Shown here piece after piece: positions 35,555 through 57,747 of a DNA stretch of 64,000 nucleotides (position 1 is its first letter; every line of letters begins with the position of its first letter). The translations under genes and the position numbers were made by a program. The notes below the pieces were generated by a model that saw nothing but the letters and a program-made list of their open reading frames with translations, was not told where the DNA came from and did not search any database. This DNA comes from Megascapheus bottae (taxonomy: Eukaryota; Chordata; Mammalia; Rodentia; Geomyidae), in assembly GCA_024803745.1 (NCBI GenBank), contig JANJXV010000040.1, positions 1,791,414-1,855,413 on the forward strand. The letters are read 5' to 3'.

Positions 35555-35649
35555 GCCCTGCCGCCATGGTGCCCTCCAAGGCCCCTCAGGACGACTGGCC
35601 CAGAGTCTACCTGAAGTCCCTGCTCTTCCTCTTCAACTTCTTCTTCTGG
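35555..35649 (+). CDS. TSPAN11: TSPAN11 coding exon 1
   Basis: The exon follows an acceptor (gcag at 35551-35554), so the 11 bases before the ATG are spliced 5' UTR. The ATG at 35566 has a strong context (GCCATGG). It encodes 28 residues: a short cytoplasmic N-terminus with the QDDW motif, then the start of TM1 ([10 protein letters not shown]). The donor gtaggt follows at 35650. Coding part is 35566-35649. Confidence 0.94.
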
Positions 35650-38600
35650 GTAGGTGGCTGCTGGAAACCCGGCCAGTCGGGAGCACTGGGCCCGGAGTCC
35701 AGGCCGGTCCTGGACACGGCCCGAGGGCCAGGACAGAGAGGGGCGGGAGCCGAGGTGCTGCACACCAACGCTCTCCCATGATCCTTTAGAAGTTCCTTGC
35801 CCAACTTTGGCTGTGCCCCCTACCCCGCCCTAACCCCCTGGGGCTGCACTTGAAGACTGAGCCCCCAGGCCATAAGGAGGTTAGCTGAGATCTAAGAGTG
35901 GGGCCTAACCCTGAGCTGGGGGCGGGGGAGGGACAGGGAAGGGGAGGGAGAAGAGCGAGATGGAGACACTCAGCCGGGCTCTGCAGCTCACGAGCCTGAG
36001 GTCTGAGGATCAAGGTTTGGAGGCCTTGCCCTGGCTTCCTGGAAAGCAGGCCCTCCACGCCTTTGAGCAGTGCCTCCAGCCCCTCGCCTGGGGCCCAGAC
36101 CTGTGGGGCTTTGCTTTATGTTTATTAACCTAGTGCGCGTGGCAGGCGCTCTGCCACCTGAGCCACAGCGCCTCTTCCGGTTTTCTGGGGGTTCATGGGA
36201 GATCAGAGTCTCCTGGACTTTCCTGCCCAGGCTGGCTTTGAACCTCGATCCTCAGATCTCAGCCTTCTGAGGGGCTGGTGTGACAGGCGGGAGGCACCGT
36301 CGCTGTCTGCCTGGGCTTAATGAAAGAGGAGCGGTTAATTCTTCCTTCTCCCTGGGCACAGGCCAGGCCAGACCCTCCTGGAAGGTGCTCTGGAGGCCAG
36401 GCACGCACGTGGCAGGCAGCTGCGGACTGTCCCCGTGTCCCCGTGTCCCTGCAGGTGGCAGGGGCCGTGGTCCTGGCGGTGGGCGTGTGGACGCTGCTGG
36501 AGAGAAGCAGCTACCTCGGGGCCCTGGCTTCTGGCACTTTCTCCGCCTCGGCCTACGTCCTCATCCTGGCGGGCTCCCTGGTGCTGGCGGCCGGCTTCCT
36601 GGGTTTCGGGGCGATCACCCGGGAGCAGAGGAGCTGCCTGTCCACCGTGAGTCACCCCCAGGCCCCAGACGGGCTCCCCAGAAATGAGACGGGCATCAAG
36701 GCCAGGGAGGAAGGCTTAGGATCCCAGCGCCCCGGCTCCCCAAAGGGCCAGGGTGGAGAGGAAGGGGAGGCGGGGAGAACCTTGCTGGGCTTAGCAAGGA
36801 GGCTACAGCACCCCAAGTCTCCAGGAAAAGTCGAGCTGAGCCGGGGGACACCCCACTTCACCCCCACTCTCCAGCACACACCGCCCATTCACAGCAGGGC
36901 CTTGCACCCGTCTGGGGGGTTGGGGGGGCCTGGGGGGGGGAAACAGGGGACCTAGGCTTGGCCCAGCCCGGCACCCTCTCCCCAGCGCGACCCAGTTTTC
37001 TGCCCTGGATAGAAGAGCTGCGCACGCACATGCAGGGCTGTAATTATGTCCGGAGGGAGCTGGGGGGACGGGACAGCGGGAAGCTGGGTCCTGGGGGCCG
37101 CCAGGCACAGAGATGGGCTCAGGGGCCTCGCAGGGGCTCTGGATCTTCACATGAGAAGGCAGCGTAGTTTCCACAGACGTCATCCATTTCCAGGGCTCTC
37201 CAGTGTTTATTTACCCAGTCCCGGGACTTGAACTCAGGGCCTGGACGCTGTCCCTGGGCCTCCTTTTGCTCCAGTCTAGTGCTCTACCTCCTGAGCCACA
37301 GCGCCACTTTGGCTTTTTGGTGGTTCACTGGAGATCAGAGTCGCATGCGCTTTCCCGCCCCGGGCTGACTTTGAACCCCGATCCTTAGATCTCAGCCTCC
37401 TGAGCAGTTGGGGTGACAGGCGGGGGCGTCCGTGGCCCCCTGATGGGCTATTTTTTTGGAGCGTGGAATTCAGGCTGGACAGAGATGGAGATGGAGGCTC
37501 CGCACAAAAGTGGGTCTGCGGGGAGCCGCTCTCTTTCTTTTTATATAAACCATGTATTTTTAGGGGACCGGTACCCTAGAAACCTGCTTTCTGCTGGGGA
37601 GGAAGAGGCCGTTCACCCTGGCGCTTGTGTCGGAGGACACTGCAGGCGGGGAGCCGTCGGGGCGGCCCTGTCCCTGTCCCCGGGGCCCTGTCCCCCGGGC
37701 CCTGTCCCTGTCATGGCCAGCTGGGTGCGGGTTGGGGTTGCGGTGTCCCTCGCAGGGCTGGCCGTGAGCCGCGGTGGCCCTGGGCTCTGCGTCCCGGGGA
37801 GGAGCTGGGGTGACGGCGAGGCCTGGCTGGGCTCCGGCGCTGACCGCCAGCCCCGTCCCGCCTCCCCAGTACCTGTGCCTGCTTCTGGTGGTCTTCCTGG
37901 TGGAGCTGGTGGCCGGGGTCCTGGCCCACGTGTACTACCAGAGGGTGAGTGGACGGTGGGAGAGCGCGGCCCTGGAAATCCCCACGCCCTGGACCCCCTC
38001 CTCCCGGAACCCCTGAACCCCCGCACCCCTGACCCCCCAACCCCCTGACCCCTGACCCCCCCCTGAACCCCCGCATCCTTGACCCCCCAACCCCCCGAGC
38101 CCCTGACCCCCCTGAACCCCCGCACCCCTGACCCCCCAACCCCCTGACCCCTGACCCCCCCTGAACCCCCGCATCCCTGACCCCCCACCCCCCGACCCCC
38201 CTGAACCCCCGCACCCCTGACACCCCGGCCCCCTGACCCTCTGACCCCCCTGATCCCCGACCCCCCACCCCCCACCCCCCAACCCCTTGACCCCCTGAAC
38301 CCCCGCACCCCTGACACCCCGGCCCCCTGACCCCCTGACCCCCCTGATCCCCGACCCCCCACCCCCCGAACCCCTGACCCCCTGAACCCCACACCCCTGA
38401 CCCCCCGGCCCCCTGACCCCCTGAACCCCCCACCCCCCGACCCCCTGACCCCCCTGAACCCCCGCACCCCTGACCCCCCTGCCCCGTGACCCCCTGATCC
38501 TCGACTCCCCACCCCCCTGACCCCCCGCGCCCCTGATCCCTGACCCCCCGACCCCTTGACCCCCCGACCCCCGACCCCCTGACCCCCGACCCTGATCCCC

Positions 38601-40912
38601 AACCCCCCTGACCCCCCTGACCCCCGATCCCCCTGACCCTCCTGACCCTCGACCTCTGACCCCCTGACCCCCGATGTCCCCGATCCACTTGACCCCCTGA
38701 CCCCCTGACCCCCCGACCCCCGACGCCCTCGACCCACCTGACCTCCCGCGTCCCCCACAGCTGAGTGAGGAGCTGAAGCAGCGCCTGAGCCTCGCCCTGG
38801 CCCAGGACTACGGGCAACCGCGGGCCTCGGCCCTGACGGCCTCCGTGGACCGCCTGCAGCAGGACGTGAGCCCCGCGGGCCTCCCGGCCACGCCCCTCCC
38901 GACCACGCCCCTCCCACCACCGGACACGCCCCTCCCCGGCCACGCCCAGGCCCTACACACCCTTCCCCGACCACGCCCACAAACGGCCACGCCCCTCAGC
39001 ACCGCTGGCCACGCCCAGGCCCTACACACCCTCCCCGGCCACGCCCACAAACGGCCACGCCCCTCAGCACCGCTGGCCACGCCCGCCCAGGCCCCACACA
39101 CCCTCCCCGGCCACGCCCACAGCCGGCCACGCCCCCTCCCGGCCACGCCCACAGTAGGCCACGCCCATAGCGCATTTACGCCCAGGCCCCACCCCTTCCC
39201 CTGGACCGCTCCTTCCATGGCTCTGCCCCCACCAGGCCACGCCCCTCCCAGGCCCCGCCCCGGCCCCGCCCCCGCCCGAGCCTCCTCCCCTCAGTCTCCA
39301 TCACCCCAGCCCCTTCCTCTCCCTCCAGTTCAAGTGCTGCGGGAGTGACAGCTGGGTGGACTGGCAGCACAGCGCCTACATCCTGTCAGCAGAGGCTGAG
39401 GGCCGCGGGGTGCCTGACAGCTGCTGCAAGACGGTGGTGGGGGGCTGCGGCCGGCGCCTGCACCCCTCCAACATCTACAGCGTGGAGGTGAGGGTCCGTG
39501 GGGGGGGCAAGGCAGAGCCCAGGCCCCGGAGGCCGCGTGCCCTCGGCCCAGGGGCAGCTGGGGTGTCTGGGGACCCCCTCCCCGGGGACCCCCCTCCCCG
39601 GGCACCCCAGACCCCCGCCCCGGTGCAGGCCCACCACGTAGCCCCGGCCTCTCTCTGCAGGGAGGCTGCAAGGCCAAACTGGAGCAGTTCCTGGCCGACC
39701 ACCTGCTGCTCGTGGGGGCCGTGGGCATCGGGGTGGCCTGTCTGCAGGTGAGCGGGGTTCGGGGTGCCTCCCCTGAGCTGACGCCCCCGTCCCGGGCCGC
39801 ACTGACTTGACCCAGCAGGAGAAGCCCCGCCAGTGCTCACCGGCTCTGCCCACCACCCCTCAGACTCAAATCCCCGGGGCTGAGAGCTGAGGGTGGCGGT
39901 TGGAGGCCAGCCTGGGCGGGAAGGCCCATGAGACTGTGATGGCCAGTCAACCACCAGAAAATGGGAAGCGGGGCTGTGGCTCGAGTGGTAGAGCGCCAGC
40001 CCCGAGCGAAAGAGCTCAGGGATGGCGAGCGCCCAGGCCATGAGTTCAAGACCCAACGACATCAGCAGCGACAAATCCCCAGGGCGCTGTGGCCTGTGCC
40101 GCCTGCCCAGGCGGGCTCTGAACCTCGGCCTCCTCAGAGTGAGCCAAGCACTGTTTTCTTGTTTCCGCCCCTGTGGCCATGCCTGGGGCGGGAGCGCCCT
40201 CTGCCGGCCAGCGCTGGGCACGGGCGGCCAGGCCCAGGCCCTGCAGGGATCCTGCCTGAGCTTTCTCTTCCTCTTCCTGGTTTTTTTTCGGGGCATGCAG
40301 CAGGGCTGGGGCTGGAACTCAGGGCTTTGCCTTCTGGCTTGCCCAGGGCTGGCGCTCTGCCATTCCAGTTGCGTCTCCACCTCTGGCTTTCTGCTGGCTG
40401 AGTGACTTGGTGTCAGCCCCTGGGGCTGGTTTTGAACCGAGGTCCTCAGATCTCAGCCTCCTGAGCAGGCGTGAGCTGCCAGCTGTTCCCAGCTTCACTT
40501 ACGGTTTAGTTAGTATATTCTTCTTTCTGCCCATCATGGGTCTTGAACTCGGGGCCGAGGTGCTGTCCCTGAGCTCTTTCACTCAGGGCTGGCGCTCTAG
40601 CAGGCTGAGCCGCAGCCCCACTTCCCATTTTCTGGAGGTTGACTGGCCATCGGAGCCTCACGGACTTTCCCGCCCAGGCTGGCTTTGAACCGCGATCCTG
40701 GGCTCTCATGGCTGGGAGGAGAGGCGAGAGACCCTGGGCCAGGAGGAGGGGTCTCTGTCGATGCAGAGAGTGACCCCCGGGCCACACAGCCACGGCGCCC
40801 GGCTGGGGTCCCCCGTGGACTCGGTGGCCGCGCTGACCCGCTGTCCCCGCAGGTGTGCGGGATGATCCTCGCATGCTGCCTGCACCGCCAGCTGCAGCCG
40901 CCCTCCTGCTGA
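35566..40912 (+). CDS. TSPAN11: TSPAN11 complete coding region (seven exons)
   Basis: Join of 35566-35649, 36455-36646, 37870-37944, 38761-38865, 39329-39487, 39661-39747 and 40853-40912 gives 253 residues, the length I remember for human TSPAN11. It is a four-pass tetraspanin of the CD151-like group, which organises membrane microdomains with integrins and other partners. TM1 spans roughly residues 18-38, TM2 57-78 and TM3 93-115. The large extracellular loop then carries CCG, PDSCC and two further cysteines (six in all), and TM4 precedes a short tail ending in QPPSC. All exons are multiples of three with phase-0 junctions and GT/AG sites. CD151 is excluded by close match to the TSPAN11 patterns [16 protein letters not shown] and [18 protein letters not shown]. 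The loop lacks an N-x-S/T sequon after CCG. The 5' UTR is spliced from an upstream exon not firmly identified. The gene runs convergently with TSPAN9. Confidence 0.95.
36125..36300 (-). mobile_element. Composite SINE in TSPAN11 intron 1
   Basis: 'ctctgccacctgagccacag' and 'ggctttgaacctcgatcctc' mark an antisense element lacking part of its right end. Confidence 0.85.
36455..36646 (+). CDS. TSPAN11: TSPAN11 coding exon 2
   Basis: Acceptor gcag at 36451-36454 and donor gtgagt at 36647 bound 64 codons. They encode the rest of TM1 ([12 protein letters not shown]), the small extracellular loop, TM2 ([20 protein letters not shown]) and the start of the intracellular loop ending CLST. The exon has the same 192-bp length as the corresponding TSPAN9 exon (46786-46977), showing the shared gene structure. 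Confidence 0.94.
37216..37428 (-). mobile_element. Composite SINE in TSPAN11 intron 2
   Basis: Nearly full length in antisense: 'gacttgaactcagggcctgg', 'ctacctcctgagccacagcg', 'gactttgaaccccgatcctt', 'cagcctcctgagcagt'. Confidence 0.9.
37870..37944 (+). CDS. TSPAN11: TSPAN11 coding exon 3
   Basis: Acceptor ccccag ends at 37869 and donor gtgagt starts at 37945. The 25 codons encode TM3 ([19 protein letters not shown]) and the first residues of the large loop (HVYYQR). The same 75-bp exon size is found in TSPAN9. Confidence 0.94.
37945..38760 (+). repeat. TSPAN11 intron 3 C-rich minisatellite (CTGAC array)
   Basis: Nearly the whole 816-bp intron from about 37995 is a degenerate tandem array of units such as CCCCCTGACCCCC and CTGAACCCCCGCACC. 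The plus (sense) strand is almost purely pyrimidine broken by GA. CTGAC matches the mammalian branch-site consensus and the flanking C-runs act like polypyrimidine tract. From 38100 to 38758 I find no AG dinucleotide before the acceptor cacag at 38756-38760. The minus strand carries runs of GGGGG suited to G-quadruplexes. Confidence 0.9.
38761..38865 (+). CDS. TSPAN11: TSPAN11 coding exon 4
   Basis: Starts directly after cccccacag and ends before gtgagc at 38866. The 35 codons encode the first helix of the large extracellular loop ([20 protein letters not shown] ... SVDRLQQD). The LQQD ending just before the CCG exon is the normal layout of this tetraspanin group. Confidence 0.94.
38880..39290 (+). 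repeat. TSPAN11 intron 4 minisatellite (CCACGCCC)
   Basis: Intron 4 (38866-39328) is filled with repeats built around CCACGCCC(CT), with a longer unit containing 'aggccctacacacc' repeated three times near 38945-39110. The core is the reverse complement of the GGGCGTGG core that dominates 29430-30470. It resembles a KLF/SP-type site in many copies. Confidence 0.85.
39329..39487 (+). CDS. TSPAN11: TSPAN11 coding exon 5 (large-loop cysteines)
   Basis: Acceptor ctccag ends at 39328, donor gtgagg starts at 39488. The 53 codons carry [25 protein letters not shown] and HPSNIYSVE, holding five of the six loop cysteines that make the disulphide core. No N-x-S/T sequon is present; the CCG motif is followed by SDSW. 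Confidence 0.94.
39661..39747 (+). CDS. TSPAN11: TSPAN11 coding exon 6
   Basis: Begins after ctgcag at 39655-39660 and ends with CTG CAG before gtgagc at 39748. The 29 codons hold the last loop cysteine ([10 protein letters not shown]) and the first part of TM4 ([15 protein letters not shown]). Confidence 0.94.
39865..40062 (+). mobile_element. Composite SINE in TSPAN11 intron 6
   Basis: 'gaggccagcctgggcgggaa' then 'gctgtggctcgagtggtaga' and 'ccatgagttcaagaccc'. Confidence 0.88.
40290..40490 (-). mobile_element. Composite SINE in TSPAN11 intron 6
   Basis: 'gctggaactcagggctttgc' and 'ggttttgaaccgaggtcctc' in antisense, diverged. Confidence 0.8.
40537..40715 (-). mobile_element. Composite SINE in TSPAN11 intron 6
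   Basis: 'gtcttgaactcggggccgag', 'gctgagccgcagccccactt', 'ggctttgaaccgcgatcctg' in antisense. Confidence 0.88.
40853..40912 (+). CDS. TSPAN11: TSPAN11 coding exon 7, stop
   Basis: Acceptor cgcag ends at 40852. Nineteen codons give the end of TM4 and the cytoplasmic tail ([19 protein letters not shown]), then TGA at 40910-40912. Two juxtamembrane cysteines (ACC) are likely palmitoylation sites by family analogy. The tail's last residues look less conserved than the rest of the protein. Confidence 0.92.
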   Translation: MCGMILACCLHRQLQPPSC

Positions 40913-43782: not shown

Positions 43783-46700
43783 CTGGAGGGCCAGGGGCGG
43801 CTCAGGGAGGAGGGACCCGGGCCCCGAATCCGAGTCCTGCCAGCCCTGGGGACCCCGGTGAGTCCTGAAGTCCCTCCAGCCCTGGGGACCCCGGTGAGTC
43901 CTGAAGTCCCTCCAGCCCTGAGGACCCCAGAGAGTCCTGAAGTCCCTCCAGCCCTGGGGACCCCGGTGAGTCCTGAAGTCCCCTCAGCCCCGGGGACCCC
44001 GGTGAGTCCTGAAGTCCCCCCAGCCCCGGGGACCCCGGTGAGTCCTGAAGTCCCCCCAGCCCCGGGGACCCCGGTGAGTCCTGAAGTCCCCCCAGCCCCG
44101 GGGACCCCGGTGAGTCCTGAAGTCCCCCCAGCCCCGGGGACCCCGGTGAGTCCTGAAGTCCCCCCAGCCCCGGGGACCCCGGTGAGTCCTGAAGTCCCCC
44201 CAACCCCGGGGACCCCGGTGAGTCCTGAAGTCCCTCCAGCCCCGGGGACCCCGGTGAGTCCTGAAGTCCCTCCAGCCTGAGGACCACAGTGAGTCCTGAA
44301 GTCCCCCCAGCCCCGAGGACCCCGGTGAGTCCTGAAGTCCCCCCAGCCCCGGGGACCCCGGTGAGTCCTGAAGTCCCTCCAGCCTGAGGACCACAGTGAG
44401 TCCTGAAGTCCCTCCAGCCCCGGGGACCCCGGTGAGTCCTGAAGTCCCTCCAGCCCCGGGGACCCCGGTGAGTCCTGAAGTCCCTCCAGCCCCGGGGACC
44501 CCGGTGAGTCCTGAAGTCCCTCCAGCCCCGGGGACCCCGGTGAGTCCTGAAGTCCCTCCAGCCTGAGGACCACAGTGAGTCCTGAAGTCCCTCCAGCCCC
44601 GGGGACCACGGTGAGTCCTGAAGTCCCTCCAGCCCTGAGGACCCCGGTGAGTCCTGAAGTCCCTCCAGCCCCGGGGACCCCGGTGAGTCCTGAAGTCCCT
44701 CCAGCCCCAGGGACCCCGGTGAGTCCTGAAGTCCCTCCAGCCTGAGGACCACAGTGAGTCCTGAAGTCCCTCCAGCCCCGGGGACCCCGGTGAGTCCTGA
44801 AGTTCCTCCAGCCCCGAGGACCCTGGTGAGTCCTGAAGTCCCCCCAGCCTGAGGACCACAGTGAGTCCTGAAGTCCCCCCAGCCCCGGGGACCCCGGTGA
44901 GTCCTGAAGTCCCTCCAGCCTGAGGACCACAGTGAGTCCTGAAGTCCCTCCAGCCCCGGGGACCCCGGTGAGTCCTGAAGTCCCTCCAGCCCCGGGGACC
45001 CCGGTGAGTCCTGAAGTCCCTCCAGCCCCGGGGACCCCGGTGAGTCCTGAAGTCCCTCCAGCCCCGGGGACCCCGGTGAGTCCTCCCTGCGGCCTGGGTC
45101 AGAGCGCAGGGCCGGCGGGGCCTCACCTGCAGGATGAGCACGCACATGCCCACGGCCCCCAGCGCGTGCCGGTTGTCCTCAAACCACAGCTTCATCTTCT
45201 CGTAGCAGCCCTGGGAGGAAGCGCAGGCCGAGGTCCTGGGTGAGGGCGGGCTCCCCGCAAGCGGGCCGGTGTGCGGAGGGGGCGGGGGGGGGGCGGAGGA
45301 GGGGCGGAGGAGGGGCGGAGGGCGGAGGGGGAGGGGGGCGGGGAGGGGCGGAGGGGAGCGGGGGGGGGGGGGCGTAGGGGGGCGGGGAGGGGGCGGGGAG
45401 GGGGGCGGGGAGGGCCCTCACCGTCCTCCACAGCGGCGTGGTGGCGTTGCGCCCGCAGCCCTGGGCGTTCTCCACGCAGCAGCGGTCGGGGACCGTGTTC
45501 TCCCCGAGCACCGGGAACCAGTCCGTGTGGTCCGAGACGCCGCAGCAGCGCATCTGCGGGACAGGGACGGGGACAGCGGGCGGTGAGGCGGGGCGGGCTG
45601 GGGACCAGCGCGGGGGACCAGGCCCGCAGCCCTGCCGGGCCCCGCCCCTCCCGCGGAGCCCCGCCCCTCCCCTCCCGGCCCCGCCCCGACCTCGGCCTGG
45701 ATGATGTTCCAGGCGTTCCGGAGCCCCTCCCTTTCCCTCAAGGCCCCGCCCCTCCCCTCCAGGCCCCGCCCCTCCCCTCCAGGCCCCGCCCCACCTCGGC
45801 CTGGACGATGTTCCAGGCGTTCCGGAGCCCCTCCCCTCCCCTCCAGGCCCCGCCCCTCCCCTCCAGGCCCCGCCCCCACCTCGGCCTGGATGCTGTTCCA
45901 GGCGTTCCGGAGCCCCGCCCCTCCCCTCAAGGCCCCGCCCCCACCTCGGCCTGCATGCTGTTCCAGGCGTTCCGGAGCCCCGCCCTTCCCCTCCAGGCCC
46001 CGCCCCTCCCTCCAGGCCCCGCCCCACCTCGGCCTGGACGATGTTCCAGGAGTTCCGGAGCCCCTCCCCTCCCCTCCAGGCCCCGCCCCTCCCCTCCAGG
46101 CCCCGCCCCTCCAGGCCCCGCCCCACTTCGGCCTGGACGATGTTCCAGGCGTTCCGGAGCCCCGCCCCTCCCCTCCAGGCCCCGCCCCTCCCTCCAGGCC
46201 CCGCCCCCACCTCGGCCTGGATGATGTTCCAGGCGTTCCGGAGCCCCACGTTGTTGTCCGTGTTGTAGAGCATCAGCCCTTCCTTCAGGTCCTGCTTGGC
46301 GTTCTCGCTCACCTGGCGGGCAGGTCCAGCGTGAGCCGGGGAGGCCTCTGGGGTGTGTGTGTGGGGGTCGCCCCCCGCCTCGGGATCCTCCCCCCCGCCC
46401 TGGATCCCCCTCCACCCCGGATCCCCCTCCCCCACAGGGATTCCCCCCTGCTTGGGGATCCCCCCTCCCCCCGGATTCCCCTCCCCCCCACGGCCCCCCC
46501 CCCCGCCCTGGCCGCCCTCCCCGCCTCACCTTGTCCATGTAGACGAAGAAGAGGATGAGCAGGATGAGCTCCGCCAGGAGGACCACCAACAGAACGATGA
46601 AGAACTGTCGAGAACACGTCCCGTGTGGGCCGGGATGACCGGACCCGGGACCCCCCCCTCCCCACCGGGCACCAGAGACCCCTCACTAGCCGAGGCCTGA

Positions 46701-53780: not shown

Positions 53781-56700
53781 CACACCACAACCACCCCCAC
53801 CACCACAACCACCACCACCAATACCACCAATATCATACCACCACCACCAATACCAACAATATCACCACCAACAATAATACTACCAACAACACCAATACCA
53901 CCACCAACACCTATACCAACAATATCACCACCAACACCAATACCACCAACACCACCAACACCACCAATACCAACAATATCACACTACCACCAATACCACC
54001 ACCACCACCACCACCAATACCAACACCACCAATACCAACAATATCACACTACCACCAATACCACCCCCACCACCAATACCAACACCAACACCACCAATAC
54101 CAACAATATCACACTACCACCAATACCAACACCACCAATACCAACAACAACAACACGAATACCAACAATATCACACTACCACCAATACCAACAATATCAC
54201 ACTACCACCAATACCACCCCCACCACCCCCACCAATACCAACACCAACACCACCAATACCAACAATATCACACTACCACCAATACCAACACCACCAATAC
54301 CAACACCACCACCACCAATACCAACAATATCACACTACCACCAATACCAACACCACCAATACCAACACCACCACCACCAATACCAACAATATCACACTAC
54401 CACCAATACCAACACCACCAATACCAACACCACCACCACCAATACCAACAATATCACACTACCACCAATACCAACAATATCACACTACCACCAATACCAC
54501 CCCCACCACCCCCACCAATACCAACACCACCACCACCAATACCAACAATATCACACTACCACCAATACCACCCCCACCAATACCAACACCCACCACCACC
54601 AATACCAACAATATCACACTACCACCAATACCAACAATATCACACTACCACCAATACCACCCCCACCACCCCCACCAATACCAACACCACCACCACCAAT
54701 ACCAACAATATCACACTACCACCAATACCAACACCACCAATACCAACAACACCACCACCAATACCAACAATATCACACTACCACCAATACCACCCCCACC
54801 AATACCACCACCACCACCACCAATACCAACAATATCACACTACCACCAATACCACCCCCACCAATACCAACACCACCACCACCAATACCAACAATATCAC
54901 ACTACCACCAATACCAACAATATCACACTACCACCAATACCACCCCCACCACCCCCACCAATACCAACACCACCACCACCAATACCAACAATATCACACC
55001 ACCACCAATACCAACACCACCACCACCAATACCAACAATATCACACTACCACCAATACCACCCCCACCACCCCCACCAATACCAACACCACCACCACCAA
55101 TACCAACAATATCACACTACCACCAATACCACCCCCACCACCAATACCACCACCACCACCACCAATACCAACAATATCACACTACCACCAATACCAACAC
55201 CACCAATACCAACAACAACACCACCAATACCAACAATATCACACTACCACCAATACCACCCCCACCACCCCCACCAATACCAACACCACCACCACCAATA
55301 CCAACAATATCACACTACCAGCAATACCAACAATATCACACTACCACCAATACCACCCCCACCAATACCACCACCACCACCACCAATACCAACAATATCA
55401 CACTACCACCAATACCAACACCACCAATACCAACAACAACACCACCAATACCAACAATATCACACTACCACCAATACCACCCCCACCAATACCAACACCA
55501 CCACCACCAATACCAACAATATCACACTACCACCAATACCAACAATATCACACTACCACCAATACCACCCCCACCACCAATACCACCACCACCACCACCA
55601 ATACCAACAATATCACACTACCACCAATACCACCCCCACCACCCCCACCAATACCAACACCACCACCACCAATATCAACAATATCACACCACCACCAATA
55701 CCAACAATATCACACTACCACCAATACCACCCCCACCACCCCCACCAATACCAACACCACCACCACCAATACCAACAATATCACACTACCACCAATACCA
55801 ACACCACCAATACCAACACCACCACCACCAATACCAACAATATCACACCACCACCAATACCAACAATATCACACTACCACCAATACCACCCCCACCAATA
55901 CCAACACCACCACCACCAATATCAACAATATCACACTACCACCAATACCAACAATATCACACTACCACCAATACCACCCCCACCACCCCCACCAATACCA
56001 ACACCACCACCACCAATACCAACAATATCACACTACCACCAATACCAACACCACCAATACCAACAACACCACCACCAATACCAACAATATCACACTACCA
56101 CCAATACCAACAATATCACACTACCACCAATACCACCCCCACCACCCCCACCAATACCAACACCAACACCACCAATACCAACAATATCACACTACCACCA
56201 ATACCAACAATATCACACCACCACCAATACCAACAATATCACACTACCACCAATACCAACACCACCAACACCACCAATACCAACACCACCAATACCAACA
56301 ATATCACACTACCACCAATACCACCCCCACCACCCCCACCAATACCAACACCACCACCACCAATACCAACAATATCACACCACCACCAATACCAACAATA
56401 TCACACTACCACCAATACCACCCCCACCACCCCCACCAATACCAACACCACCACCACCAATACCAACAATATCACACTACCACCAATACCAACACCACCA
56501 ATACCAACACCACCACCACCAATACCAACAATATCACACCACCACCAATACCAACAATATCACACTACCACCAATACCACCCCCACCAATACCAACACCA
56601 CCACCACCAATATCAACAATATCACACTACCACCAATACCAACAATATCACACTACCACCAATACCACCCCCACCACCCCCACCAATACCAACACCACCA

Positions 56701-57747
56701 CCACCAATACCAACAATATCACACTACCACCAATACCAACACCACCAATACCAACAACACCACCACCAATACCAACAATATCACACTACCACCAATACCA
56801 ACAATATCACACTACCACCAATACCACCCCCACCACCCCCACCAATACCAACACCAACACCACCAATACCAACAATATCACACTACCACCAATACCAACA
56901 ATATCACACCACCACCAATACCAACAATATCACACTACCACCAATACCAACACCACCAACACCACCAATACCAACACCACCAATACCAACAATATCACAC
57001 TACCACCAATACCACCCCCACCACCCCCACCAATACCAACACCAACACCACCAATACCAACAATATCACACCACCACCAATACCAACACCACCACCCCCA
57101 CCAATACCAACACCACCACCACCAATACCAACAATATCACACTACCACCAATACCAACAATATCACACTACCACCAATACCACCCCCACCACCCCCACCA
57201 ATACCAACACCACCACCACCAATACCAACAATATCACACTACCACCAATACCAACACCACCAACACCACCAATACCAACAATATCACACTACCACCAATA
57301 CCAACACCACCAATACCAACACCACCACCACCAATACCAACAATATCACACTACCACCAATACCAACAATATCACACTACCACCAATACCACCCCCACCA
57401 CCCCCACCAATACCAACACCAACACCACCAATACCAACAATATCACACTACCACCAATACCAACACCACCAATACCAACACCACCACCACCAATACCAAC
57501 AATATCACACCACCACCAATACCAACACCACCAATACCAACACCACCACCACCAATACCAACAATATCACACTACCACCAATACCAACACCACCACCAAT
57601 ACCAACACCACCACCATCAATACCAACAATATCACACTACCACCAATACCAACACCAACAATACCAACAACAACACCACCAATACCAACACCACCACCGC
57701 CACCATCACCACCACCACCATCACCACCACCACCATCAACAACAACC
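53781..57747 (+). repeat. 4-kb ACC/AAT-rich satellite array
   Basis: Nearly 4 kb of G-free plus-strand sequence built from ACC, AAT and AAC triplets. The commonest monomer is the 26-mer ACCACCAATACCAACAATAT CACACT, mixed with longer units containing CCACCCCCACCACCCCCACC. These combine into higher-order units of about 70 bp. A stretch of about 690 bp is duplicated in tandem: 55681 onward repeats at 56372 onward with a constant 691-bp offset until about 57047. The edges fade into CAC-only trinucleotides. No coding capacity. Confidence 0.97.

Follow-up and report, generated by a model that had tools for sequence, protein, structure and literature searches.

Minisatellite-like tandem duplications that span an exon-intron boundary have been described in amphioxus under the name 'mirages', and their copy number varies (PMC3087553, PMC3902484). 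The genes concerned are Adh3, the globins BflGb6 and BflGb9, and TnC, with PGBD5 likened to them; many of the repeats keep the AG/GT signal, and RT-PCR suggests that regular splicing is undisturbed (PMC3087553, PMC3902484). In humans, internal tandem repeats at the exon-intron boundaries of segmental duplications can change splicing, and 27 intron modifications have been reported (PMC2812944). According to the title of Turri et al. 1995, a minisatellite in human IFI6 (G1P3, 6-16) provides multiple splice donor sites, and this work has been cited for 'interfering with gene splicing' (PMC3618361). Herein, we describe a mammalian boundary-spanning minisatellite in TSPAN9, with a readable putative founding breakpoint, in a region whose GC content is extreme. 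Coordinates refer to the window, i.e. the whole 64-kb stretch of DNA that was analysed. Six TSPAN9 coding exons were placed on the minus strand between 46977 and 43711, from LCGCGLLGVG... to ...GKKYDA and with normal acceptors and donors, by tblastn with a human TSPAN9 protein; residues 1-21 of this query had no tblastn match in the window. The best-scoring named homologues of these exons were mammalian. The features of the array and its surroundings are the following:

46211..46312, minus strand: TSPAN9 coding exon 4 (numbering of the sequence-only reading that preceded this analysis), 102 nt, VSENAKQ...NAWNIIQAE, found by tblastn, with AG acceptor and GT donor
46211..46247, minus strand: 37-nt exon tail, unit 0 of the array
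46239..46247, minus strand: exonic member of the 9-bp direct repeat GGGGCTCCG, putative left founding breakpoint
46209..46210, minus strand: authentic GT donor, 9-mer GAGgtgggg
45554..46210, minus strand: array-bearing intron of TSPAN9, 657 nt, 78.5% GC, 61 runs of at least three G, open in the exon frame
46127..46163, minus strand: copy 1, 2/37 mismatches, weakened donor GAAgtgggg, +84 nt, in frame, type V
46028..46064, minus strand: copy 2, 2/37 mismatches, equal donor GAGgtgggg, +183 nt, in frame, type V
45945..45981, minus strand: copy 3, 2/37 mismatches, donor GAGgtgggg, +266 nt, frameshift, type S
45880..45916, minus strand: copy 4, 1/37 mismatch, donor GAGgtgggg, +331 nt, frameshift, type S
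45795..45831, minus strand: copy 5, 1/37 mismatch, donor GAGgtgggg, +416 nt, frameshift, type V
45691..45727, minus strand: copy 6, 0/37 mismatches, weakened donor GAGgtcggg, +520 nt, frameshift; last unit, 65 bp
45654..45662, minus strand: intronic member of the repeat GGGGCTCCG, past the last unit, putative right founding breakpoint
45422..45553, minus strand: next coding exon (MRCCG...PLWRT), acceptor CCGCAG|ATG

Several features of this array have been revealed in the present analysis. First, mismatch counting found the last 37 nt of the exon at 46312-46211 six more times in the next intron of 657 nt, with 2, 2, 2, 1, 1 and 0 mismatches from copy 1 to copy 6, and the coordinates that the sequence-only reading had given for six downstream recurrences of this tail are exact. 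Chance similarity was ruled out, since the best match to the exon tail in 300 order-1 simulated introns carried at least 12 mismatches (range, 12 to 19), compared with 0 to 2 in the real copies. At up to nine mismatches, further copies of the exon tail were found on neither strand of the window. Second, the exon end and its donor lie inside a regular unit. The 3' end of the exon reads ATCCAGGCCGAG followed by the donor gtgggg, and each unit is built from the 37-nt exon tail, a donor flank of 11-12 nt and blocks of 15-20 nt, of which there are one to three, giving unit lengths of 84, 99, 83, 65, 85, 104 and 65 along the array. The flanks read GTGGGGGCGGGG or GTGGGGCGGGG, with GTCGGGGCGGGG in copy 6; they measure 11 nt in the type V copies 1, 2 and 5, and 12 nt in the type S copies 3 and 4, after the exon and in copy 6. 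The internal G-rich blocks are CCTGGAGGGGAGGGGCGGGG and its variants, the last block being cut at 16. The copy positions, the identities and this unit grammar support the earlier claim that the unit of a minisatellite has come to include an exon end and its splice donor. Third, no other duplicated exon end was observed at up to nine mismatches on either strand: this was the case for 0/11 of the remaining TSPAN9 ends (one of which is the stop codon) in the window and for 0/14 of the ends of tblastn-defined blocks of TSPAN11, which lies on the plus strand at 35566-40897, convergent to TSPAN9.

The TSPAN9 array is built like a mirage. It is a tandem duplication spanning an exon-intron boundary, and the splice signals are kept, with GT in 6/6 copies and AG|GT in 5/6 (AA|GT in copy 1). 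We do not claim the name, since mirages were named in cephalochordates, a difference of origin and not of mechanism; moreover, the reported mirages lie on both the donor and the acceptor side, whereas the present array is mammalian and confined to the donor side, and its units each hold a nested G-rich block. The units contain the donor end of the exon and no acceptor end, and nothing points to a new intron formed by tandem duplication of a proto-splice site, the comparison with homologues being made at the protein level. As for IFI6, its unit is reportedly a short one of 12 bp and RNA evidence is said to accompany it, whereas the TSPAN9 unit is longer and includes 37 nt of coding exon; the likeness lies in the repeat-borne candidate donors, and the authentic 9-mer is carried by 4/6 TSPAN9 copies. 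The human boundary repeats are likewise of the minisatellite class and located at exon-intron boundaries, but they belong to recent primate paralogues and many lie within exons, whereas the present copies are intronic and in a conserved gene (PMC2812944). Among the matches listed from the open-access literature, no mammalian unit combining a coding-exon tail with its donor was found, and absence from print is not claimed. Among mammals, such arrays may indeed be rarely described, but amphioxus mirages, human IFI6 and the human boundary repeats precede the present case.

The sequence suggests how the array might have been founded. The GGGGCTCCG pair is the only exact match of at least 8 between 46330-46211 and the post-array intron at 45690-45554, and the right edge of the last unit reads GGGGCTCCGCGGG at 45662, its first nine bases being the start of the exon tail. 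A duplication between the two repeats yields a unit of exactly 65 bp, and 65 bp is the shortest period of the array, also seen between copies 3 and 4. We infer that the array was founded when about 65 bp, delimited by the exonic and the intronic 9-bp GGGGCTCCG repeat, were duplicated in tandem, which would have placed a second exon tail and donor inside the intron. Later growth might have occurred through whole-unit duplications and the gain or loss of the internal G-rich block of 15-20 nt, resulting in the exon plus six copies. The linkage between exon-part and flank variants fits whole-unit duplication, and a 19-nt block common to the exon-starting unit and the copy 2 unit suggests that the intron beside the true donor joined the exchange. 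Over its 37 nt, copy 6 does not differ from the exon, yet it is expected to be the oldest edge copy; simple ageing does not explain this identity, which needs chance, recent exchange or constraint. The persistence of the array might be explained by its unit, because every unit holds a near-intact exon tail and GT, so that slippage gaining or losing units would re-create the boundary and the array would be tolerated. The copy number, or even the whole array, might instead have arisen from misassembled GC-rich reads, as the intron has about 79% GC and 61 G runs and one amphioxus draft array of like type was apparently misassembled (PMC3087553). However, the units vary in length and carry linked private variants, unlike stuttered identical repeats, and the flanking exons are intact, and we regard such an artefact as very unlikely.

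A second minisatellite was observed at 43833-45084, where some 35 copies of a 36-bp unit, arranged in a 107-bp higher order, fill most of the 1344-nt last TSPAN9 intron. Its consensus unit on the plus strand contains CCGGTGAGTCC, a donor-like word opposite to the gene strand. An origin common to this array and the exon-tail array was not supported, as by eye the 36-bp unit did not resemble an exon edge.

The setting of the array is one of extreme base composition. The TSPAN9 exons have a GC3 of 97.7% over 218 codons, and GC3 ranges from 0.87 to 0.95 in seven TSPAN11 blocks. The TSPAN9 protein shares 83.0-88.5% identity with nine vertebrate TSPAN9s, hand-picked from 120 listed, compared with 90.4-97.7% among those nine, frog included, and it differs at 16 sites at which seven other placental mammals agree. 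These results suggest that the locus is under extreme GC-raising evolution, probably driven by recombination, as in a hotspot of GC-biased conversion. A similar combination has been reported for runaway GC in gerbils, where extreme GC goes along with numerous amino-acid changes in proteins that are normally conserved and was studied as GC-biased gene conversion; the main text of that report names neither TSPAN9 nor TSPAN11 (PMC7403616). Other arrays abound in the window, so that a minisatellite as such is unremarkable here; what stands out is that this one overlaps an exon edge.

The candidate donors of the array are not of equal strength. GT directly follows all six copies, and the authentic 9-mer GAGgtgggg is present in four of them (copies 2-5); copy 1 deviates by A at -1 and copy 6 by C at +3. 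With a donor scoring matrix, the authentic donor and copies 2-5 scored 3.84, copy 1 scored 0.50 and copy 6 scored -0.07, and the corresponding U1 duplex energies, calculated in ViennaRNA with the U1 5' end, were -9.4, -4.3 and -6.0 kcal/mol. Equal strength of all decoys was thus rejected for copies 1 and 6 on the 9-mer, the score and the U1 energy. The sequence-only reading had stated that each copy ends in GAG or GAA followed by GT, which holds throughout, and that the flanks are as good as those of the real donor, which holds for copies 2-5 but not for the weaker copies 1 and 6. The authentic donor and four copies are thus equal, the other two copies are weaker, and copy 2 (+183 nt) is the one in-frame decoy that matches the authentic site. 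The other four TSPAN9 donors in the window scored 7.28, 5.07, 7.44 and, lower, 1.71 for exon 2 with this matrix, and their U1 energies were -11.6, -10.1, -8.8 and -7.6 kcal/mol, so that the authentic donor beats two of the four by energy. The eight remaining GTs of the intron scored -6.3 or lower with the same matrix; the array is thus the source of all serious rivals among GT donors. A special RNA fold at the array was not supported (z -1.04; 3/20 shuffles equally stable), and a predicted stem pairing exonic GCUCC with the G-run of the donor is present in 7/7 units and therefore does not discriminate the true donor from the decoys.

Published work on competing donors bears on which of these sites would be used. 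According to Carranza et al. 2022, a long downstream intron favours the upstream of two near-equal donors, and a short upstream intron strengthens this preference; minigenes that carried 365-nt introns and two identical strong donors used the upstream donor alone. The exon of the array has an upstream intron of 217 nt and a downstream intron of 657 nt, and with these lengths the near-equal donor rule predicts main use of the donor at 46210. The equal competition of seven donors implied earlier is therefore not upheld, as two of the six decoys are weakened and the published near-equal data predict upstream use. We consider it probable that the array is a neutral minisatellite in a GC-rich hotspot, with a unit that includes the exon 3' end and its donor, and that the authentic upstream donor is mainly used. 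Decoy use would then be minor at most, resulting in extracellular loops enlarged by 28 or 61 residues or in frameshifts that stop in exon 6. Several caveats apply to the upstream prediction. First, the exon has 59.8% GC, below the 78% of both flanking introns, and an exon poorer in GC than both of its introns is not the typical exon-definition layout. GC contrast is also reported to influence donor choice (Carranza et al. 2022). Second, three of the four remaining TSPAN9 donors have higher scores than the authentic one. Third, splicing from the decoys of copies 5 and 6 would shorten the intron to 241 and 137 nt, in the short class of Carranza et al. 2022. Fourth, downstream donors won about 60% of events and the majority in every class in that study when strength was unmatched, and its larger-exon minigenes in which both donors were weakened mainly skipped the exon.

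The offsets of the six copies from the true donor, given earlier as 84, 183, 266, 331, 416 and 520 nt, are correct together with their frames. Copies 1 and 2 add 28 and 61 residues in frame, and both extensions are open, each ending in GLRNAWNIVQAE or GLRNSWNIVQAE right before MRCCG. Copies 3-6 shift the frame, read through exon 5 and stop in exon 6, at 65 nt (copies 3 and 5) or 52 nt (copies 4 and 6) upstream of the last junction. The whole 657-nt intron is also 3 x 219 nt and open in the exon frame, so that intron retention would be coding as well, a point absent from the sequence-only reading. This open frame is weak evidence, because at 78.5% GC the order-1 simulations left the same frame open in 23% of cases, compared with 4.7% for plain base shuffling, and any frame is open in 0.56 of the order-1 simulations. 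Thus, the open intron frame as a sign of coding constraint was not supported by the order-1 simulation (0.23), compared with 0.047 in the plain shuffle.

The frameshifting copies might nevertheless be harmful: equal downstream donors could divert splicing into frameshifted and degraded transcripts and lower the TSPAN9 output. Copies 3, 4 and 5 combine the authentic 9-mer with a frameshift, and TSPAN9 is unusually divergent, as it would be under relaxed constraint. However, the six exons have normal splice edges, the frame is complete and the C-terminus is normal, and stops at 65 or 52 nt before the last junction lie near the limit of 50-55 nt in the usual rule for nonsense-mediated decay, which makes decay uncertain. 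The downstream preference of strength-unmatched donors (Carranza et al. 2022) would favour such diversion. On balance, we hold damage by the decoys to be unlikely.

Conversely, the decoys, chiefly copy 2, might be functional and used at real frequency, so that some TSPAN9 isoforms would carry a longer large extracellular loop that repeats the segment preceding the CCG motif. The donor of copy 2 shows the authentic 9-mer and keeps the frame, both extensions (+28 and +61) lack stop codons, the authentic donor is of only moderate strength, and the IFI6 minisatellite is titled as supplying multiple splice donor sites (Turri et al. 1995). Extensions at this junction have also been annotated in TSPAN9 of other species. 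QAE continues into xxCCG without an insert in 117/120 listed TSPAN9 homologues by pattern, and in one more by eye, and in 2/120 records an insert starting with VR is found, of 53 residues in the bank vole and 8 in the water buffalo. These inserts may be products of gene models or real alternative ends. However, upstream donors of equal strength are favoured in such an intron layout (Carranza et al. 2022), the frame is lost with 4/6 decoys, whose stops fall in exon 6 at 65 or 52 nt upstream of the last junction, and an open frame is cheap at such GC. In addition, the extension region had no match at E<=1 among 1463 candidate proteins, a set from which the protein of the species itself is apparently absent, as the best listed identity to the present TSPAN9 is 89%, which makes this negative a weak one. 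Functional isoforms of this kind are thus rather improbable. There is a slim chance that the array acts as a working multi-donor switch, in which a share of TSPAN9 transcripts uses the donor of copy 2 (less often that of copy 1), the number of units in a non-coding minisatellite sets a ladder of loop lengths and unequal exchange between the exon and the copies re-creates the boundary; if so, protein length polymorphism would arise from donor choice and not from a coding repeat.

Under the neutral reading that we prefer, the array is still a natural duplicated-donor experiment, with five donors of the same 9-mer in near-identical exon context over 416 nt of an otherwise conserved gene. Junction counts in this one intron would bear on whether donor preference follows the nearest site across the exon or across the intron.

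Other features of the window were also recorded. An Rfam scan and a tRNA scan with a bacterial-code tool gave no matches in the 64-kb window. The TSPAN11 blocks on the plus strand are separated by long arrays, e.g. at 38010-38748, just before the block at 38758. At 53783-57735, nearly 4 kb of a CAC-type repeat is almost free of G on the plus strand, with a GC skew of -0.996 in 54001-56000.
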